A stretch of 9,544 bases of DNA from positions 1-9,544 of the forward strand of contig JALRFB010000023.1 of assembly GCA_023256555.1 (NCBI GenBank), in the 5' to 3' direction. The translations under genes were made by a program, and so were the position numbers. This DNA is from Sediminibacterium sp. (lineage in GTDB: Bacteria; Bacteroidota; Bacteroidia; Chitinophagales; Chitinophagaceae). Shown piece after piece: positions 1 through 5,371 of the stretch (position 1 is its first letter; every line of letters starts with the position of its first letter). Below the pieces are notes generated by a model. It saw only the letters and a list, made by a program, of their open reading frames with translations, was not told the DNA's origin and searched no databases.

Positions 1-697
1 CTTCCTCTTGATTATGTGTAATAGTAGCACCATTAGTATATTGAGTATCTAATTCATATCCTTCAGGATGTGTAATAACAAATTCAGCTTCGCCCCATGC
101 ATTCATCCATTGACTAAAGCTATTCGCAACGCATTGAGGAATTGATTTAATATGAGGTGCCCAGGTTAATACCACTTTTGGTCGCTTATTTTGTAATGTA
201 CTATGCTGAGTAATAGTCTCCTGAATAGTAATAATATCTGTTAATGATTGTAGTGGATGCAAAGTCGCCGACTCTAAACTCACTACCGGAACTCCAGCAT
301 ATTGTATAAATTGATTAATTATTTTCTCACTATAATCATCCCCTTTATTCACTAAACCAGGAAAAGTTCTTATACATAAAATGTCAAAATAATTACCCAA
401 AATGGGGGCAGCATCTTTGATATGTTCTACTGTATTACCATTCATTGTAGCACCTTCTGTAAATTCTAATGCCCATCCTTCTTTATCTACATTAAATACA
501 ATGGGCTCCATGCCTAAATTTTGCGCAGCTACCTGAGTACTTAATCTTGTTCTTAAACTTGGATTTAAAAAAAGTAACCCAATTCTCTTATTAGCACCTA
601 ATTGTTTATCTAAAAAAGGATTAGACTTATAGTTCAAAGCTTTTTGAACCAAAGCATTAATATTTGTTACATCATTGGTACTTATAAACTGTTTCAT
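1..697 (-). CDS. argF': N-acyl-ornithine carbamoyltransferase (probably N-succinylornithine type), 3' end outside window
   Basis: This enzyme transfers the carbamoyl group of carbamoyl phosphate to N-acylated ornithine, giving N-acylcitrulline in the cytoplasmic arginine pathway. The first 232 residues are visible from an ATG at 697; family members have about 320, so roughly 85 C-terminal residues lie beyond the left edge. The carbamoyl-phosphate loop reads NPSLRTR (45-51). IRTF follows at 109-112, HPLQSLTD at 147-154, TWAPH at 178-182 and HPEGYEL at 210-216. TWAPH and the W75-centred WALEF loop mark the acyl-ornithine branch rather than ordinary ArgF. Residue 90, in the loop NGNTVEHI, is Val. 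From family knowledge, the Bacteroides fragilis succinylornithine enzyme has Pro90 there and the Xanthomonas acetylornithine enzyme has Glu92; lack of Glu favours the succinyl substrate (inference). It starts 7 bp after argD stops, so it is the fifth visible gene of the operon. The family call is secure; the acyl group is less certain. Confidence 0.93.
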   Translation of the reverse strand, partial: MKQFISTNDVTNINALVQKALNYKSNPFLDKQLGANKRIGLLFLNPSLRTRLSTQVAAQNLGMEPIVFNVDKEGWALEFTEGATMNGNTVEHIKDAAPILGNYFDILCIRTFPGLVNKGDDYSEKIINQFIQYAGVPVVSLESATLHPLQSLTDIITIQETITQHSTLQNKRPKVVLTWAPHIKSIPQCVANSFSQWMNAWGEAEFVITHPEGYELDTQYTNGATITHNQEE

Positions 698-704
698 CTT
701 TCCT

Positions 705-1856
705 TTAACTATTTTTTTGTTGCAAATACGCAATAGCGTCCTGCATTCCTTTTAAAAATAAATCAATATCGCTTTTAGTAATTGCCAAAGAAGGAAGCAA
801 TCTAATTACATTAGGTTTCGCTTCTCCGGTAAAAATGTTGAACTCATTTAATAAAACTTTTCTAAGATCTTCTAAACCTTCTTCCATTTCGAAGCCAATC
901 ATCAGACCTTTTCCTCTCACCACTTTAACACCTTTTATTGCTTTCAAAGCATTCATTAAATATTCACCCTGTAATTGCGCATTATGTATTAAGTTTTCTT
1001 TTTGCATTACTTCAATCACCCCTAATGCTGCAGCGCATGCTAGAGGATTACCACCAAAAGTAGTTCCCAACATGCCAAATTTTGCTTGAATATGAGGAGC
1101 AATTAAAATGGCCCCAATAGGGAAGCCATTTCCCATGCCTTTCGCCATAGAGTATATATCAGCGTTCACTCCAGCAAAATCATGTGCAAAGAATTTACCA
1201 GATCTGCCATAACCACATTGTACACTATCCGCAATATATACAGCTCCAAATTCGTCACATACTTTTCTAATAGTTTGTAAAAATGCATCACTAGCTTCAT
1301 GAATTCCCGCTACACCTTGAATACCTTCAACAATAACAGCAGCAATATCTTTTCCGCTAGTTGCAAAACATGCTTCCAATGCTACAATATCATTCAATGG
1401 TAAGAAGATAATATTATCTGTCTCATTTACAGGCGCCACAATACTTGGATTGTCAGTTGCAGCAACTGCCAGAGATGTTCTTCCATGAAAAGATTTTTTA
1501 AATGCAATGATTTTTTTTCTTCCAGTATGAAAAGAAGCCAATTTTAATGCATTCTCATTGGCTTCAGCACCACTATTACACAAGAATAATTGAAAATCTT
1601 TTTTACCACTAATGTCATTAATGGCTTTAGCTAGTTCTTCTTGTATCGGCATGATCACAGAATTAGAATAAAATGCAATCAAATGCAATTGATCTTCTAT
1701 TCTTTTTACCCAATGAGGGTTTGTATGACCAATACTTATAACAGCATGACCTCCGTACATGTCTAAATATTCCTGTCCTTTATCATCCCAAACCCTAGAT
1801 CCTAGTGCTTTAGTGATTGCTATTGGGTTTAGAGGATATACATTGAATAGTGACAT
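705..1856 (-). CDS. argD: Acetyl/succinylornithine aminotransferase (class III, PLP-dependent)
   Basis: This enzyme converts N-acylglutamate 5-semialdehyde and glutamate to N-acylornithine and 2-oxoglutarate, the step before the carbamoyltransferase encoded next to it. The 383-residue length is normal for ArgD. Visible class-III aminotransferase landmarks are NSGAEANENALK (94-105), FHGRT (123-127), VEGIQGVAG (176-184), IADSVQCGYGRSGKF (208-222) and YSMAKGMGNGFPIGA (235-249). K239 is the lysine expected to form the PLP Schiff base and D210 should contact the PLP nitrogen. The usual DEVQ motif reads DSVQ here, which I recall as common in Bacteroidota homologues rather than a defect. The ATG at 1856 gives a complete N terminus; argC ends 22 bp upstream and argF' begins 7 bp downstream. 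Acetyl versus succinyl substrate cannot be read from this sequence; the neighbouring ArgF' suggests succinyl. Related ornithine or 4-aminobutyrate aminotransferases are unlikely given the operon. Confidence 0.93.
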   Translation of the reverse strand: MSLFNVYPLNPIAITKALGSRVWDDKGQEYLDMYGGHAVISIGHTNPHWVKRIEDQLHLIAFYSNSVIMPIQEELAKAINDISGKKDFQLFLCNSGAEANENALKLASFHTGRKKIIAFKKSFHGRTSLAVAATDNPSIVAPVNETDNIIFLPLNDIVALEACFATSGKDIAAVIVEGIQGVAGIHEASDAFLQTIRKVCDEFGAVYIADSVQCGYGRSGKFFAHDFAGVNADIYSMAKGMGNGFPIGAILIAPHIQAKFGMLGTTFGGNPLACAAALGVIEVMQKENLIHNAQLQGEYLMNALKAIKGVKVVRGKGLMIGFEMEEGLEDLRKVLLNEFNIFTGEAKPNVIRLLPSLAITKSDIDLFLKGMQDAIAYLQQKNS

Positions 1857-1878: not shown

Positions 1879-2859
1879 CTAAAAATAATTGGCTTTGATT
1901 TTTAATCCTGTTGTTTCTTCAAGGTCAAAAATTAGATTCATATTCTGAACCGCTTGACCAACCGCACCTTTTAATAAATTGTCTATTACGGAATGAACAG
2001 CAATTTTATTTCCTTGTTGTTCTATATGAATTAAACATTTATTGGTATTCACCACTTGTTTTAAATCTATAGTAGACTTGGAAACAATTGTGAAAGCATG
2101 ATCAGCATAAAAATGATTGTATAAATCATAAACAGCATCAATGCTTAAATCTGTTGAAATAACTGAAGTCACAAAAATACCTCTCGTAAAATCACCTCTC
2201 CAAGGTACAAAGTTCACTACTGCATTGGAATTGCCTTGCAATAGAGAAAGGCTTTGATGAATCTCGTTAATATGTTGATGATTCAATGTTTTATAAGCAC
2301 CAACATTATTAGCTCTCCAGCTAAAATGACTTGTAGAAGATAAACCCTGACCTGCGCCAGTTGAACCAGTAATGCCTGTAGTGTAAACTTCCTTCAATAA
2401 GCCCTTAGCAGCCAAAGGCAACAAACCTAATTGAATAGCTGTTGCAAAACATCCAGGATTGGCGATGGCATTCGCAGATTTAATTTTATCTCTTTGTAAT
2501 TCAGGTAGTCCATATACAAAATTTCTCTCACCCGTACTAGCCGTATTGGCTAATCTGAAATCTTGAGAAAGGTCAATAATTTTAACACTTGAATTGATCT
2601 CATTAGATGCTAAAAACTTTTTAGCGTCTCCATGTCCAACGCATAAAAACAAGACATCTATTGCTTGATTTATTTCACTTGCAAAAACCAAATCAGTATC
2701 TCCCAATAAATCGGTATGCACTTTACTCACTAATTCACCTGCATTACTAGTGCTATGTACAAAACTAATATTTGCATTAGGATGGCGTAATAATACACGT
2801 AGTAATTCACCACCTGTATAACCAGCACCACCAACTATTCCAATATTAATTTTTTGCAT
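1879..2859 (-). CDS. argC: N-acyl-gamma-glutamyl-phosphate reductase
   Basis: ArgC reduces N-acylglutamyl 5-phosphate with NADPH to the semialdehyde used by ArgD. At 326 residues it is a full-length short-form ArgC. The Rossmann nucleotide loop is IGIVGGAGYTGGELLR (6-21). The catalytic cysteine is C137 in ANPGCFATAIQL (133-144). Further family landmarks are DLSQDFRL (96-103), the glycine-rich TGSTGAGQGLS segment that follows the active site, and LNHQHINEI, which should supply the active-site histidine. The ATG at 2859 is immediately followed by the nucleotide-binding strand, as in the family. argG ends 17 bp upstream and argD starts 22 bp downstream, so the gene sits inside the operon and probably has no promoter of its own. 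In Bacteroidota with a succinylated pathway the same protein family handles the N-succinyl intermediate (inference for this organism). Confidence 0.95.
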   Translation of the reverse strand: MQKINIGIVGGAGYTGGELLRVLLRHPNANISFVHSTSNAGELVSKVHTDLLGDTDLVFASEINQAIDVLFLCVGHGDAKKFLASNEINSSVKIIDLSQDFRLANTASTGERNFVYGLPELQRDKIKSANAIANPGCFATAIQLGLLPLAAKGLLKEVYTTGITGSTGAGQGLSSTSHFSWRANNVGAYKTLNHQHINEIHQSLSLLQGNSNAVVNFVPWRGDFTRGIFVTSVISTDLSIDAVYDLYNHFYADHAFTIVSKSTIDLKQVVNTNKCLIHIEQQGNKIAVHSVIDNLLKGAVGQAVQNMNLIFDLEETTGLKIKANYF

Positions 2860-2876: not shown

Positions 2877-4076
2877 TTATTTCTTGTTGGAGGCTTTTAC
2901 ATGATGATAAATGCCTGTTTGATTACCAAATATTTTGGTAAATCCTCTTACATCAGCACCTGTCCATCCCGTATTCATCTCACCATACTTGCCAAATTTA
3001 GCACTCATTAAATCATTCTCAGATTCAATGCCAATAATTTGAAAACGATATGGATTCAATTGAATAAAAACATCTCCAGTAACCTGCTCTTGCGAACTTA
3101 TTAAGTATGCTTCAATATCTCTCATCACTGGATCTAATATTTGACCCTCGTGTAACCAGTTACCATAAAAAGAAGCTAATTGATCTTTCCAAGACAATTG
3201 CCATTTAGTTAAGACATGCTTCTCTAAAGCATGATGTGCTTTTAAAATCACCATTGGTGCTGCAGCTTCAAAACCTACACGTCCTTTAATACCGATAATG
3301 GTATCACCCACGTGAATATCTCTGCCAATACCATACGCACCAGCTATAGATTGAATATACTGAATGGCTTCTGTGGGATGAGCAAATGTTTGTCCATTTA
3401 CTTTTTTGATTTCTCCTTTTTCAAAGTGTATCACCATTTCTTCAGATGCACCTTCTTTGGTCATAGGTGTTGGCCATGCAGATTCAGGTAACATACCTTT
3501 TGAATTCAAAGTCTCTTTACCTCCCACACTTGTTCCCCATAAACCCTTGTTAATTGAATAGGCTGCTTTTTCAAAATTCATATTCACACCCTTACCCTTC
3601 AAATATTCAATCTCTGCTTCTCTACTTAATTGTAAATCTCTGATTGGAGTTAAGATTTCAATTCCAGGAATCATAATCTGGAAAATCATATCAAAACGTA
3701 CTTGATCATTACCAGCTCCAGTACTACCATGTGCAACTAATTTTGCACCTACTTTTTTTACATGCTCTGCAATATGTAATGCTTGGCTTAAACGCTCAGC
3801 ACTAACACTCAATGGATAAGTATTATTTTTTAACACATTGCCGTAAACCAAATATTTAATAATGCTATCATAGTAGCCTTTCACTGCATTCACTGTAGTA
3901 TGTGATTTCACACCCAATGCATAAGCGTGTGCTTCCACTTTTTTCAATTCTTCTTCTGTAAAGCCGCCAGTATTTACAATAACACTATGCACTTCCAATC
4001 CTTTATCTTCTGTTAAGTATTTTACACAAAATGTGGTATCTAATCCACCACTAAATCCTAATACAACTTTCTCCAT
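2877..4076 (-). CDS. argG: Argininosuccinate synthase
   Basis: ArgG condenses citrulline and aspartate with ATP to argininosuccinate, the penultimate arginine step. The 399-residue length matches the family. The N terminus carries the PP-loop ATP site, FSGGLDTTF (8-16), equivalent to the usual YSGGLDTS. The HGSTGAGNDQVRFD segment (116-129) corresponds to the conserved citrulline/aspartate-binding block; the Lys I recall in the common TGKGNDQVRF form is Ala here, which appears to be a lineage variant. YSINKGLWGTSVGG is the equivalent of the YSIDxNLxG region. The ATG at 4076 sits at the PP-loop strand, so no extra N-terminal sequence is expected. The GNAT gene ends 4 bp upstream and argC begins 17 bp downstream. 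argG placed ahead of the early-pathway genes is the order I associate with Bacteroidota arginine operons. argH is not visible in this window. Confidence 0.96.
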   Translation of the reverse strand: MEKVVLGFSGGLDTTFCVKYLTEDKGLEVHSVIVNTGGFTEEELKKVEAHAYALGVKSHTTVNAVKGYYDSIIKYLVYGNVLKNNTYPLSVSAERLSQALHIAEHVKKVGAKLVAHGSTGAGNDQVRFDMIFQIMIPGIEILTPIRDLQLSREAEIEYLKGKGVNMNFEKAAYSINKGLWGTSVGGKETLNSKGMLPESAWPTPMTKEGASEEMVIHFEKGEIKKVNGQTFAHPTEAIQYIQSIAGAYGIGRDIHVGDTIIGIKGRVGFEAAAPMVILKAHHALEKHVLTKWQLSWKDQLASFYGNWLHEGQILDPVMRDIEAYLISSQEQVTGDVFIQLNPYRFQIIGIESENDLMSAKFGKYGEMNTGWTGADVRGFTKIFGNQTGIYHHVKASNKK

Positions 4077-4080
4077 AATA

Positions 4081-4701
4081 TTATTTTTTACTAAACCAAT
4101 TCAAAATATTAAAACCTTTTTTCTTAGATGCTTGTCTGGCATCAGCTTGCGCTTTATCCAAAATTTCATTCGGATCAAATAACATCGCAGTACACATGCA
4201 ATTTTTTCTATCCTTACTCATTAAAATTTCATAATTCACACAGCTTTTACAACCAGCCCAAAATTCTTCATCGTCGGTTAATTCACTATAAGTAACTGGC
4301 TCATAACCTAATTCACTATTAATTTTCATTACAGCCAATCCAGTGGTTAATCCAAATATTTTAGACTGGGGATACTTCTCTCTTGACAATTGAAAAATGG
4401 TTTGTTTGATTTTTTTTGCAATACCACTTTTTCTAAATGGAGGAGATACAATTAAACCACTGTTTGCTACAAACTGCCCGTGTTGCCAGGCTTCAATATA
4501 ACAAAAGCCAACCCAGGCTCCATCTTCAGTATGTGCAATAACAGATTTCCCTTCTTCAATTTTCTTAGCTACATATTCAGGACTACGTTTAGCAATACCT
4601 GTACCTCTTGCTTTTGCAGAAGATTCCATTTCATCGGTAATATCCTTAGCATAAGAAACGTCGCCACTATGGGCTACACGAACTATTATTTTCTGTTCCA
4701 A
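4081..4701 (-). CDS. GNAT-family acyltransferase, candidate N-acyl (succinyl?) glutamate synthase
   Basis: This is a 206-residue GNAT-fold protein, the first structural gene of the arginine operon. The acyl-CoA site is visible in NSGLIVSPPFRKSGIAKKI (80-98), with the R-x-x-G-x-A pyrophosphate loop at 90-95. The late GNAT strand is around FGLTTGLAVMKINSELGY (116-133). After this comes an uncommon cysteine set, C151-x2-C154 and C168-x-C170, which could bind zinc. The tail (about 180-206) is Lys/Ala-rich. The start is TTG at 4701: an in-frame TGA lies two codons upstream and the next Met is residue 25, inside sequence that looks conserved. No Shine-Dalgarno is evident. It ends 4 bp before argG. 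No ArgA or ArgJ is visible, so this enzyme is the logical one to make N-acylglutamate from glutamate and acyl-CoA (inference from position and fold). The fold is certain, the substrate is not. Confidence 0.8.
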   Translation of the reverse strand: MEQKIIVRVAHSGDVSYAKDITDEMESSAKARGTGIAKRSPEYVAKKIEEGKSVIAHTEDGAWVGFCYIEAWQHGQFVANSGLIVSPPFRKSGIAKKIKQTIFQLSREKYPQSKIFGLTTGLAVMKINSELGYEPVTYSELTDDEEFWAGCKSCVNYEILMSKDRKNCMCTAMLFDPNEILDKAQADARQASKKKGFNILNWFSKK

Positions 4702-4716
4702 TAATCAATAAAATTT

Positions 4717-4746
4717 AAAAAAATGACACTTCTGGCGTTGAATGCA
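4717..4746 (-). terminator. Weak bulged hairpin with U-tract, possible attenuator terminator
   Basis: On the minus strand TGCATTC (4740-4746) can pair with GAAGTGTCA (4724-4732) as seven base pairs with two single-base bulges around a seven-base loop. Seven U follow at 4717-4723. It ends 15 bases before the TTG start of the first operon gene. Its 5' arm overlaps the region that can pair instead with the palindromic segment at 4777-4782, so hairpin and alternative pairing exclude each other. The bulges make it a poor intrinsic terminator by itself. It could instead occlude the ribosome site of the GNAT gene, which would make the control translational. Confidence 0.3.
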
Positions 4747-4797
4747 ATTTCCGGGGATTTTTCCACTGATAGGGGCAATTGCCAACTGCTCGTCCTA

Positions 4798-4905
4798 TCA
4801 GAATCCACGTCGCGGTGACTGTGGCAACCTGATGGGGTTGTTCAAAACAGGAACAGCTGCTATAAAAGCAGTAGTCAATAAGGTATATAAGTTTTCCTGT
4901 TTCAT
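4798..4905 (-). CDS. Candidate 35-residue arginine leader peptide
   Basis: A short frame opens at ATG (4903-4905) with AGGA seven bases upstream (4913-4916), and closes with tandem stops TGA TAG. The peptide begins MKQENLYTLL, has a hydrophobic middle, and ends NNPIRLPQSPRRGF. Its three Arg codons are all in the last ten residues: AGG (4828-4830), CGA (4810-4812) and CGT (4807-4809). A ribosome waiting at the CGA-CGT pair should cover the 5' arm of the 4766-4801 hairpin, while one that has finished would release it, the geometry of leader-peptide attenuation. It lies just ahead of an arginine operon, which fits the Arg content. Against it: three Arg codons is modest, and a frame this short in GC-rich sequence could arise by chance. 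Conservation of the Arg codons in relatives would settle it. I do not recognise a homologue. Confidence 0.45.
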   Translation of the reverse strand: MKQENLYTLLTTAFIAAVPVLNNPIRLPQSPRRGF

Positions 4906-4933
4906 TGTTTAATCCTGTAAAAGAATTGAGTTG

Positions 4934-4959
4934 TAAAAGTATAAAATAAAATAGACAAA
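4934..4959 (-). promoter_or_regulatory. Possible promoter of the arginine operon
   Basis: On the minus strand TACTTTTA (4934-4941) matches seven of the eight positions of the Bacteroidota -7 element TAnnTTTG. A TTTG (4956-4959) lies 14 bases upstream, shorter than the 19-21 usual for the -33 element, so the match is imperfect. Initiation a few bases downstream would give a short leader before the ATG at 4905. No ARG-box palindrome for ArgR was found nearby. It is the best candidate in a very AT-rich stretch but could be coincidence. Confidence 0.3.
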
Positions 4960-5029
4960 TAGGTCATTATCGCTAATAAATAGCCCAAAATGTGAATGAC
5001 TGTTAGTATTTACTCTTCGAAACTAGTTG

Positions 5030-5037
5030 TAATTTTG
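5030..5037 (+). promoter_or_regulatory. Candidate -7 promoter element of the YHS lipoprotein gene
   Basis: TAATTTTG is an exact match to the Bacteroidota housekeeping -7 consensus TAnnTTTG. It lies 19 bases before the ATG at 5057, so the transcript would have a short 5' UTR of roughly a dozen bases. No exact TTTG -33 element is present at the expected 19-21 base distance; the nearest similar motifs are TTAG at 5003-5006 and TTTA at 5009-5012. This divergent promoter and the operon promoter together occupy 4934-5037. Confidence 0.5.
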
Positions 5038-5056
5038 CCTAAATAACTCTTGAATT

Positions 5057-5371
5057 ATGAAAAATCTATTCAAATTAAGTATAGCTGTTGCTGGTTTATT
5101 TAGCATGACAGCATGTGCAAGCAACCAACAAGAAAAAGCAACTACTACTGATACAGCAATGACAATGCAACAAGATACTACCGCTGCACCAGCATTTACA
5201 GCAGCAATGGTGGATAACAAAAAAGATCCTACTTGTGGTATGCCAGTGACAGCAGGTATTAGTGATACTGCACATTACGAAAACAAAGTGTTAGGATTTT
5301 GTTCTACTGAATGCAAGAATGAATTCTTAAAGAATCCGAAAGCAAATATTGCTGCAGCTGAGTTAAAATAA
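5057..5371 (+). CDS. Small YHS-domain lipoprotein
   Basis: This is a 104-residue predicted lipoprotein carrying a metal-binding-type YHS domain. A signal peptide (1-19) with hydrophobic core LSIAVAGLFSM ends in the lipobox MTAC, making C20 the lipidated residue. Residues 21-53 form a Thr/Ala/Gln/Met-rich linker of low complexity. The YHS-like domain follows: DPTCGM (57-62), AHYENKVLGFCSTEC (72-86), then a short EFLKNP helix (89-94). C60, C82 and C86 are the conserved cysteines, a set that in YHS proteins is associated with binding copper or other metals (family knowledge; the metal here is unknown). The protein is expected on the periplasmic face or outer membrane. It is divergent from the arginine operon, has its own -7 element, and its stop abuts the stop of the convergent SNF2 gene. 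No metal exporter or copper ATPase is visible nearby to fix the role. Confidence 0.88.
   Translation: MKNLFKLSIAVAGLFSMTACASNQQEKATTTDTAMTMQQDTTAAPAFTAAMVDNKKDPTCGMPVTAGISDTAHYENKVLGFCSTECKNEFLKNPKANIAAAELK

Follow-up and report, generated by a model that had tools for sequence, protein, structure and literature searches.

The leader reading frame upstream of the GNAT-argG operon of Sediminibacterium sp. has its stop codon inside a conserved and covarying hairpin. This leader is likely, on balance, an arginine sensor, in which ribosome stalling on arginine codons would open the hairpin and turn the operon ON. When charged Arg-tRNA is scarce, the ribosome would stall on two arginine codons and hold the stop-codon hairpin open, and the operon would be transcribed. 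When arginine is ample, the ribosome would finish the leader and depart, the hairpin would close, and a weak terminator before the first gene could form. Judged by comparison with related sequences, the observed pattern is real and far beyond chance.

The window is the whole stretch of DNA that was analysed (9,544 nucleotides). Its operon lies on the minus strand in the order GNAT-argG-argC-argD-carbamoyltransferase, with the leader frame upstream. The first gene encodes a GNAT acetyltransferase (4081..4701, PF00583) and has a TTG start. It is followed by argG for argininosuccinate synthase (2877..4076, PF00764 and PF20979), an argC-like gene with semialdehyde dehydrogenase domains (1879..2859, PF01118 and PF22698), an argD-like class-III aminotransferase gene (705..1856, PF00202), and a gene of the ornithine/aspartate carbamoyltransferase family (2..733, PF02729) that is truncated at the window end. 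A sequence-only reading of this DNA had described a GC-rich island in AT-rich flanks, which the base counts bear out: the GC content is 51% at 4731-4850, compared with 26% at 4906-5056, 14% in the 29 bases at 4702-4730, and 34% in the window. A promoter-like box, TACTTTTA (4934..4941, minus strand), is located 36 nt upstream of the leader start and fits TAnnTTT[GA], which we take to be the Bacteroidota -7 consensus. Of 188 type A leaders, 179 have a box of this form no more than 70 nt upstream of their start (20% in shuffles), at a median distance of 36 nt, which speaks for a transcription start above the frame. The GNAT start motif was found downstream of the element in 204 of 214 type A loci. 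Under an open-frame rule, the GNAT start codon was TTG at 156, GTG at 50, and ATG at 7 of 213 type A loci. Judged by its codon, the GNAT start is a conserved weak start (TTG/GTG, seldom ATG).

The leader frame (MKQENLYTLLTTAFIAAVPVLNNPIRLPQSPRRGF-TGA, 35 codons) occupies 4798..4905 on the minus strand, with ATG at 4905 and TGA at 4800-4798. Its peptide ends in SPRRGF, and the TGA is followed by TAG at 4797-4795. The tandem arginine codons CGA-CGT (4807..4812) are at positions -4 and -3 from the stop. The frame, its PRRGF end, and the arginine codons had been placed correctly by the earlier reading. The 216 unique type A leaders were divided by the apical loop of their hairpin into a UGGC class (130), an ACC class (63), and others (23). 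Of the 130 UGGC-class leaders, 126 were scored, and each of them had arginine at both -3 and -4. The end RRG[F/C]-TGA was kept in 127 of the 130; the exceptions were RREF once, RRSF once, and one leader cut by its contig. The start codon was followed by Lys-Gln in 75 of 128 UGGC-class leaders. The middle of the frame is variable among relatives, and codons upstream of the leader end differ synonymously, for example CCG-CGA-CCT-CGA versus CCG-AGG-CCG-CGA. The ends of ACC-class leaders are less fixed than those of the UGGC class, with RRG[F/C] in 20 of 63 and others such as RPVF, RPEC, and CPDC. The stop was TGA in 216/216 type A leaders, which is partly by construction because many were located by a CTGA pattern. 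The next codon was TAG in 169, CAG in 46, and TGG in 1 of the 216 leaders; the tandem stops described earlier are present in the window, but the second UAG is not essential. As in an attenuator, the short frame precedes a cognate operon, carries cognate (Arg) codons near its end, and is under coding selection in the UGGC, ACC, and type B leaders. Six leaders searched against Pfam and NCBIfam at E up to 1 matched no family. A protein search with an ACC-type leader gave 25 relatives, and all six with a name were called 'hypothetical protein'.

The stop-codon hairpin (4766..4801, minus strand) was matched by the covariance model R1 with 86.3 bits at 4755-4812. P1 is a perfect 8-bp helix between 4801-4794 (CTGATAGG) and 4773-4766 (CCTATCAG). 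It starts at the final base of the last sense codon, and the stop codon is inside it. P2 joins GCAG (4789-4786) with TTGC (4778-4775), and the apical loop is TTGGCAA (4785-4779). The covariation alignment comprised 102 matches (96 distinct rows) from 100 of 390 loci, including two reverse-strand matches to the near-palindromic hairpin (L016 and L133). P1, CUGAYAGG with CCURUCAG, was paired in 100% of rows. Its fifth pair was CG in 44, UA in 43, and UG in 9, and the P2 pairs alternate in a compensatory manner among GC, AU, CG, and UA. The covariation score was reached by 0 of 500 shuffles and the number of double-sided pair changes by 3 of 500; kinship was ignored in these figures and in the counts among relatives. 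The pairing of 4794-4801 with 4766-4773 had already been proposed from the window, and it is real, since compensatory changes occur in both helices of the covariance-model matches. Conservation of the frame with its arginine codons and covariation in relatives had been named as tests of the attenuator, and both were found.

Several other candidate features of the hairpin were rejected. A stop-codon hairpin as a class-wide feature was dropped, with scores of 11.9 versus 11.0 shuffled for type B leaders and 13.0 versus 11.8 for leaders of the class Bacteroidia. By eye, a P0 helix (CGTGG/CCCCG) around P1 was seen in some Sediminibacterium leaders and is absent from RPVF-ending leaders, and a T-box-like reading of the UGGC loop was abandoned on account of the ACC loops in other genera. 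A frameshift or readthrough beyond the leader stop and a selenocysteine element were also considered by eye and dropped. A UCCCC/CUCCG stretch recurs between P1 and the downstream element at many type A loci; no partner for it was found by eye, and it may serve as a site for Rho or a protein.

The GNAT gene was present in 36 of 60 relatives, and the 30 loci compared were all from Sediminibacterium. The core precedes GNAT in 29 of these 30 loci and was lost in L017 (G004), whose leader is cut short at CCGAC and whose P1/P2 are gone, either a real loss or an assembly fault of the MAG. With up to 2 mismatches allowed, 86 of 101 Sediminibacterium genomes contained the core; 84 of these had one exact match each. 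Across named genomes, the core pattern occurred in at least 119 stretches. Among the matches listed, the cultures with the core included Sediminibacterium ginsengisoli, goheungense, magnilacihabitans, roseum, soli, and salmoneum, with S. salmoneum NBRC 103935, S. ginsengisoli DSM 22335, and S. goheungense DSM 28323 among the strains. Three MAG contigs titled Chitinophaga pinensis, Comamonas, and Sphingobacterium (L176, L189, and L211) have a Sediminibacterium-type core, and their titles look wrong. Of 394 Chitinophagaceae genomes, 131 matched the covariance model of the element at E < 1e-3 and 136 at E ≤ 0.1, five of the latter above 0.01. A second, weak match (26.3 bits) was seen at L382 (G567 C16:76377-77030), before another frame that starts ATGAATATCACTATCATTGGC and away from the GNAT gene of that genome. 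A different leader, type B, was found at 21 of 28 loci (L232-L259). It has 36-38 codons, ends in RRPRI-stop (RRSRI in L258), and is without the P1 core; the remaining seven loci are type A. By eye, two loci of other Chitinophagales families also have arginine-rich leaders before GNAT: L088 (G044) has SRSYRRRR-stop and a clear terminator, GACTAC...GTAGTC-GTTTTT, and L090 (G053) has the Arg-run leader QRRFRRRPSGRV-stop.

There is good evidence from the comparison of loops that the apical loop pairs with an element just upstream of the first gene, although this is not universal. In the window, the predicted partner of the loop TGGC (4784-4781) is GCCA at 4733..4736 on the minus strand, as indicated by covariation among relatives. 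GCCA was present downstream in 44/44 leaders of the MKQ clade, to which the window belongs, against 10% in shuffles and 2 of 63 ACC-class leaders. Within the UGGC class, it occurred in 64 of 130 leaders and was missing from 66, and only 7 of the 42 RRGC-ending leaders had it. The ACC class instead has UGGU downstream (57/63, versus 7/130 in the UGGC class), where it usually forms the loop of a short hairpin, GGA-YUGGUNN-UCC, with GGA and UCC together in 35. At 55 ACC-class loci, 26-44 nt (median 30) separate the end of the UGGU partner from the GNAT start. The bases adjoining ACC and UGGU gave a Watson-Crick match in 34 of 57 leaders, compared with 14.1 ± 3.2 in shuffles. The match is weaker at the genus level than at the leader level: 17 genus-by-base combinations of the ACC class match and 19 do not, and 16 of 24 genera have at least one match. 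Single lineages have longer pairings, such as UGCCAGU with GCUGGCA in L309, L311, and L312 (two further loci of that genus, L318 and L319, lack it) and UUGCCU with AGGCAA in L327. The 23 leaders of the other loop class have no clear partner overall, and 52% beat the shuffled median. The predicted pairing could be either a contact between two closed hairpins or an alternative pairing with P1 open. This contact and the selection on the peptide had escaped the sequence-only reading, whose account was in this respect incomplete.

At 4717..4738 on the minus strand, the window has a weak terminator-like hairpin (ACGC-CAGAA-GTGT, 4738-4726; score 9) and then seven T (4723-4717). This is the weak hairpin with seven U of the earlier reading, and it exists in the window. 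Strong terminators (score ≥ 12) occurred in 18 of 42 RRGC-ending UGGC leaders (7% in shuffles), 11 of 88 RRGF-ending UGGC leaders (5%), and 5 of 21 type B leaders (8%). They were not enriched in the ACC class (3/63 versus 8%) or the other class (1/23 versus 4%).

The probability of the terminator was calculated by nested, pseudoknot-free folding with assumed ribosome footprints. For the 22 MKQ-clade leaders with a terminator score ≥ 8, the mean fell from 0.34 (P1 free) to 0.20 when a ribosome was placed at the stop and to 0.09 when it was stalled at the second arginine codon. The corresponding means were 0.61, 0.38, and 0.29 for 33 RRGC leaders, and the values of the window were 0.31, 0.26, and 0.06. 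The leader's own upstream part lowered the terminator more than a swapped upstream part in 62 of 84 cases, with a small margin (0.09 versus 0.13 and 0.31 versus 0.43). In the lowest-energy fold of the stalled window, UUGGC is paired with GCCAG of the terminator. We infer that once the hairpin is open, the freed 3′ arm and UUGGC would pair with the terminator arm (GCCA, 4736-4733) and block the terminator. The folding and swap results favour stalling as the ON state, which is the direction that had been proposed before. The antiterminator of that proposal, 4777-4782 with 4744-4749, is not conserved: the AATTGC it needs downstream was found in 4 of 130 UGGC-class relatives. Its upstream region 1 (4822-4833), thought to pair with either arm of P1, is a clade feature, found in 30 of 43 MKQ-clade leaders, and is not general (35 of 130 UGGC-class leaders).

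Some observations stand against control by stalling on the arginine codons. A ribosome waiting at the stop would likewise open the hairpin, and with a stall at the first arginine codon, P1 would stay largely free in the assumed geometry. The window has a weak terminator, and about half of the UGGC class is without GCCA, as counted above. Codon counting alone also fails to explain the conserved peptide of the ACC class or the preference for TGA. The nonsynonymous/synonymous ratio was 0.31 for 383 pairs of the UGGC class, 0.058 for 166 pairs of the ACC class, and 0.37 for 30 pairs of type B, calculated from codons with a single difference in equal-length pairs of 60-95% identity, excluding the start and the last four codons. 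Leader starts were picked by a rule favouring 38 codons, so leader length is not independent evidence. The ACC-class consensus is n.lthtkq.afha..t.gvy.vgfdvf.f..rPRR (lower case, 40-80%). Conserved non-cognate residues, as expected of an arrest peptide, are found in the ACC class and more weakly in the class of the window. The conservation in the ACC class is far beyond the needs of arginine codons, which suggests a nascent-chain function. Such strong purifying selection in many genera means that the leader may act as an arrest peptide.

Arrest at the UGA is the main rival of stalling on arginine codons, and we regard it as possible but rather unlikely. The nascent leader in the exit tunnel would sense arginine and block release at the UGA, the arrested ribosome would keep the hairpin open, and the closed, docked hairpin would be the ON state. 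The low ratio of the ACC class argues for this reading. So do the leaders from the class Bacteroidia: the stop was TGA in 21 of 24 hand-picked leaders, compared with 27% of 86 local genes, and arginine was at -2 in 24/24. The arginine positions are biased because these leaders were picked by eye from 44, while the stop codon was no criterion. A similar arrangement is the Arg23-Pro24-UGA of TnaC, as given in the part of PMC8429421 considered here. In the folding model, the terminator becomes less probable with a ribosome at the stop; for a biosynthetic operon in lineages that have terminators, this is the wrong sign, and it counts against arrest in the genus of the window. The ratios of the UGGC class and type B also argue against arrest, and 11 of the 21 type B stops are TAA. 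Over 260 ACC pairs, the mean identity of the leader (0.57) was lower than that of the GNAT N-terminus (0.74), indicating that the strong conservation of the peptide holds within groups of genera and not across the entire ACC class.

The arginine repressor ArgR is nearly absent from this family. ArgR (PF02863) was detected in 1 of 117 family genomes, as a marginal match (25.0 bits) with an internal stop, and it was not found in G000 (58% complete); 8 of 14 control genomes were positive, Bacteroides included. Of 197 genomes from the class Bacteroidia, 73 have GNAT and 9 have a strong ArgR (> 70 bits). By coordinates, argR is located directly before GNAT in 6/6 Bacteroidia genomes having both. 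The regions upstream of GNAT were scored at 44 of 49 class loci (5 were without the GNAT motif), four of the 44 being from Chitinophagaceae. A significantly Arg-ended short frame (p ≤ 0.05) was found in 22 of the 44, and the last 12 residues of the best short frame had 3.16 Arg, compared with 1.14 in dinucleotide shuffles. The sole scored region from an ArgR genome, L437, gave no Arg-ended frame signal. Profiles of the class leaders and the Chitinophagaceae leaders matched with a best E of 0.0015 (shuffled controls from 0.14), which is only a hint of homology. The class leaders L404, L412, L417, and L423, from several families, have common stretches like FSIPAGIVF and ends such as PFFPRR, with few arginine codons besides the final two. 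We tentatively propose, as a doubtful though not far-fetched extension, a previously undescribed class-wide arginine-sensing arrest peptide of Bacteroidia with approximately 40 residues. Its conserved nascent chain and Arg-X-UGA end would gauge arginine, and in Chitinophagaceae it would open or close the stop-codon hairpin, with the loop docking on the operon entry. It would take exactly the place of argR in the few Bacteroidia whose repressor gene has stayed next to the operon. The presence of argR beside GNAT in some genomes and of an Arg-ended leader in the same place in others makes a swap of regulatory mode directly testable.

Translational control is an improbable explanation. The docked hairpin would restrict initiation at the weak GNAT start, and termination would play no role. 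TTG or GTG starts at 206 of 213 type A loci are consistent with it, as is the ACC class, which has no terminator enrichment and has its UGGU partner 26-44 nt before the start. The terminators enriched in RRGC-ending UGGC leaders and in type B argue against it. A riboswitch appears quite improbable. In this case, arginine or a related metabolite would be bound by an aptamer made up of the hairpin with its docked loop, and the role of the leader frame would be limited to tuning the folding. Docked loops occur in folded aptamers, and the junction ACGA and the P1 sequence are near-invariant. The Rfam search gave 0 matches at gathering for the window and none at E up to 10 for 4600-5060; a match to a known ligand-binding RNA had been named earlier as a refuting outcome, and it did not occur. 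Type B genera retain an Arg-ended leader without the hairpin, and the arginine codons and reading frame are conserved, both of which speak against an aptamer. That a chance frame merely lies beside a structured RNA or DNA-level site, with no regulation, is very improbable. In its favour, the leader by itself folds little better than shuffles (z -1.84), so the case for the element rests on its relatives and not on energy. Their conservation, covariation, and coding selection contradict this reading.

Control by stalling on arginine codons can be compared with several known systems. The trp/his-type attenuators have a leader peptide, cognate codons, competing structures, and a terminator. The present leader has the same parts, with predicted competing structures and a terminator in some lineages. 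It differs in that its hairpin starts at the leader stop and its loop is predicted to pair downstream, its terminator is weak or unenriched in other lineages, and its peptide is conserved. Actinobacterial trp attenuator cases are included in PMC1262725. The arrest peptides TnaC, which responds to tryptophan and has a UGA stop with a penultimate arginine, and SpeFL, which senses the arginine-related ornithine, are covered in the part of PMC8429421 considered. They and the present leader are short with a conserved peptide; however, TnaC and SpeFL govern catabolic operons, whereas the present leader precedes a biosynthetic operon and arrest is only a candidate.

In the same phylum, leader-peptide attenuation has been proposed before amino-acid operons of Flavobacterium psychrophilum (PMC9723704), although the main-text part of that paper considered here names no arginine operon, unlike the present case. 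Leader-like short frames are mentioned for Bacteroides thetaiotaomicron in a passage of PMC7366714. In S. aureus, an arginine-sensing leader controls the translation of rbf, according to a part of PMC13009471. An arginine leader attenuator in Bacteroidota was not found in the open-access literature, which was partly surveyed, with subscription papers and supplements outside; the sequence-only reading, too, knew of none described in this phylum.

The closest known logic is that of Salmonella orf34/speF, judged from descriptions in part of PMC6386406 and not from peptide comparison. The 34-codon leader orf34 has consecutive arginine codons at 12-13, and the formation of a 'downstream of stop' hairpin depends on whether the ribosome is at these codons or at the stop. 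It controls ornithine decarboxylase, with Rho and RNase G. The arginine codons of the present leader instead adjoin the stop, and a docked loop is predicted here, while none appears in that description of orf34/speF. The closest architecture is the LEU element of actinobacterial leuA, where, in the relevant part of PMC1262725, a run of leucine codons precedes leuA and a pairing involves the Shine-Dalgarno box. That element concerns leucine in another phylum; the present leader concerns arginine in Bacteroidota, and the window has arginine codons and an argG operon, not a leucine codon run before leuA. We file the present element as a putative new form of ribosome-mediated leader regulation. 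It would explain the control of arginine synthesis in Bacteroidota without ArgR and would add arginine to the amino acids read by leader peptides ahead of their own biosynthetic operon. Beside these known systems, it would be a natural RNA whose hairpin encloses the stop codon itself and makes a further, downstream pairing through its loop.
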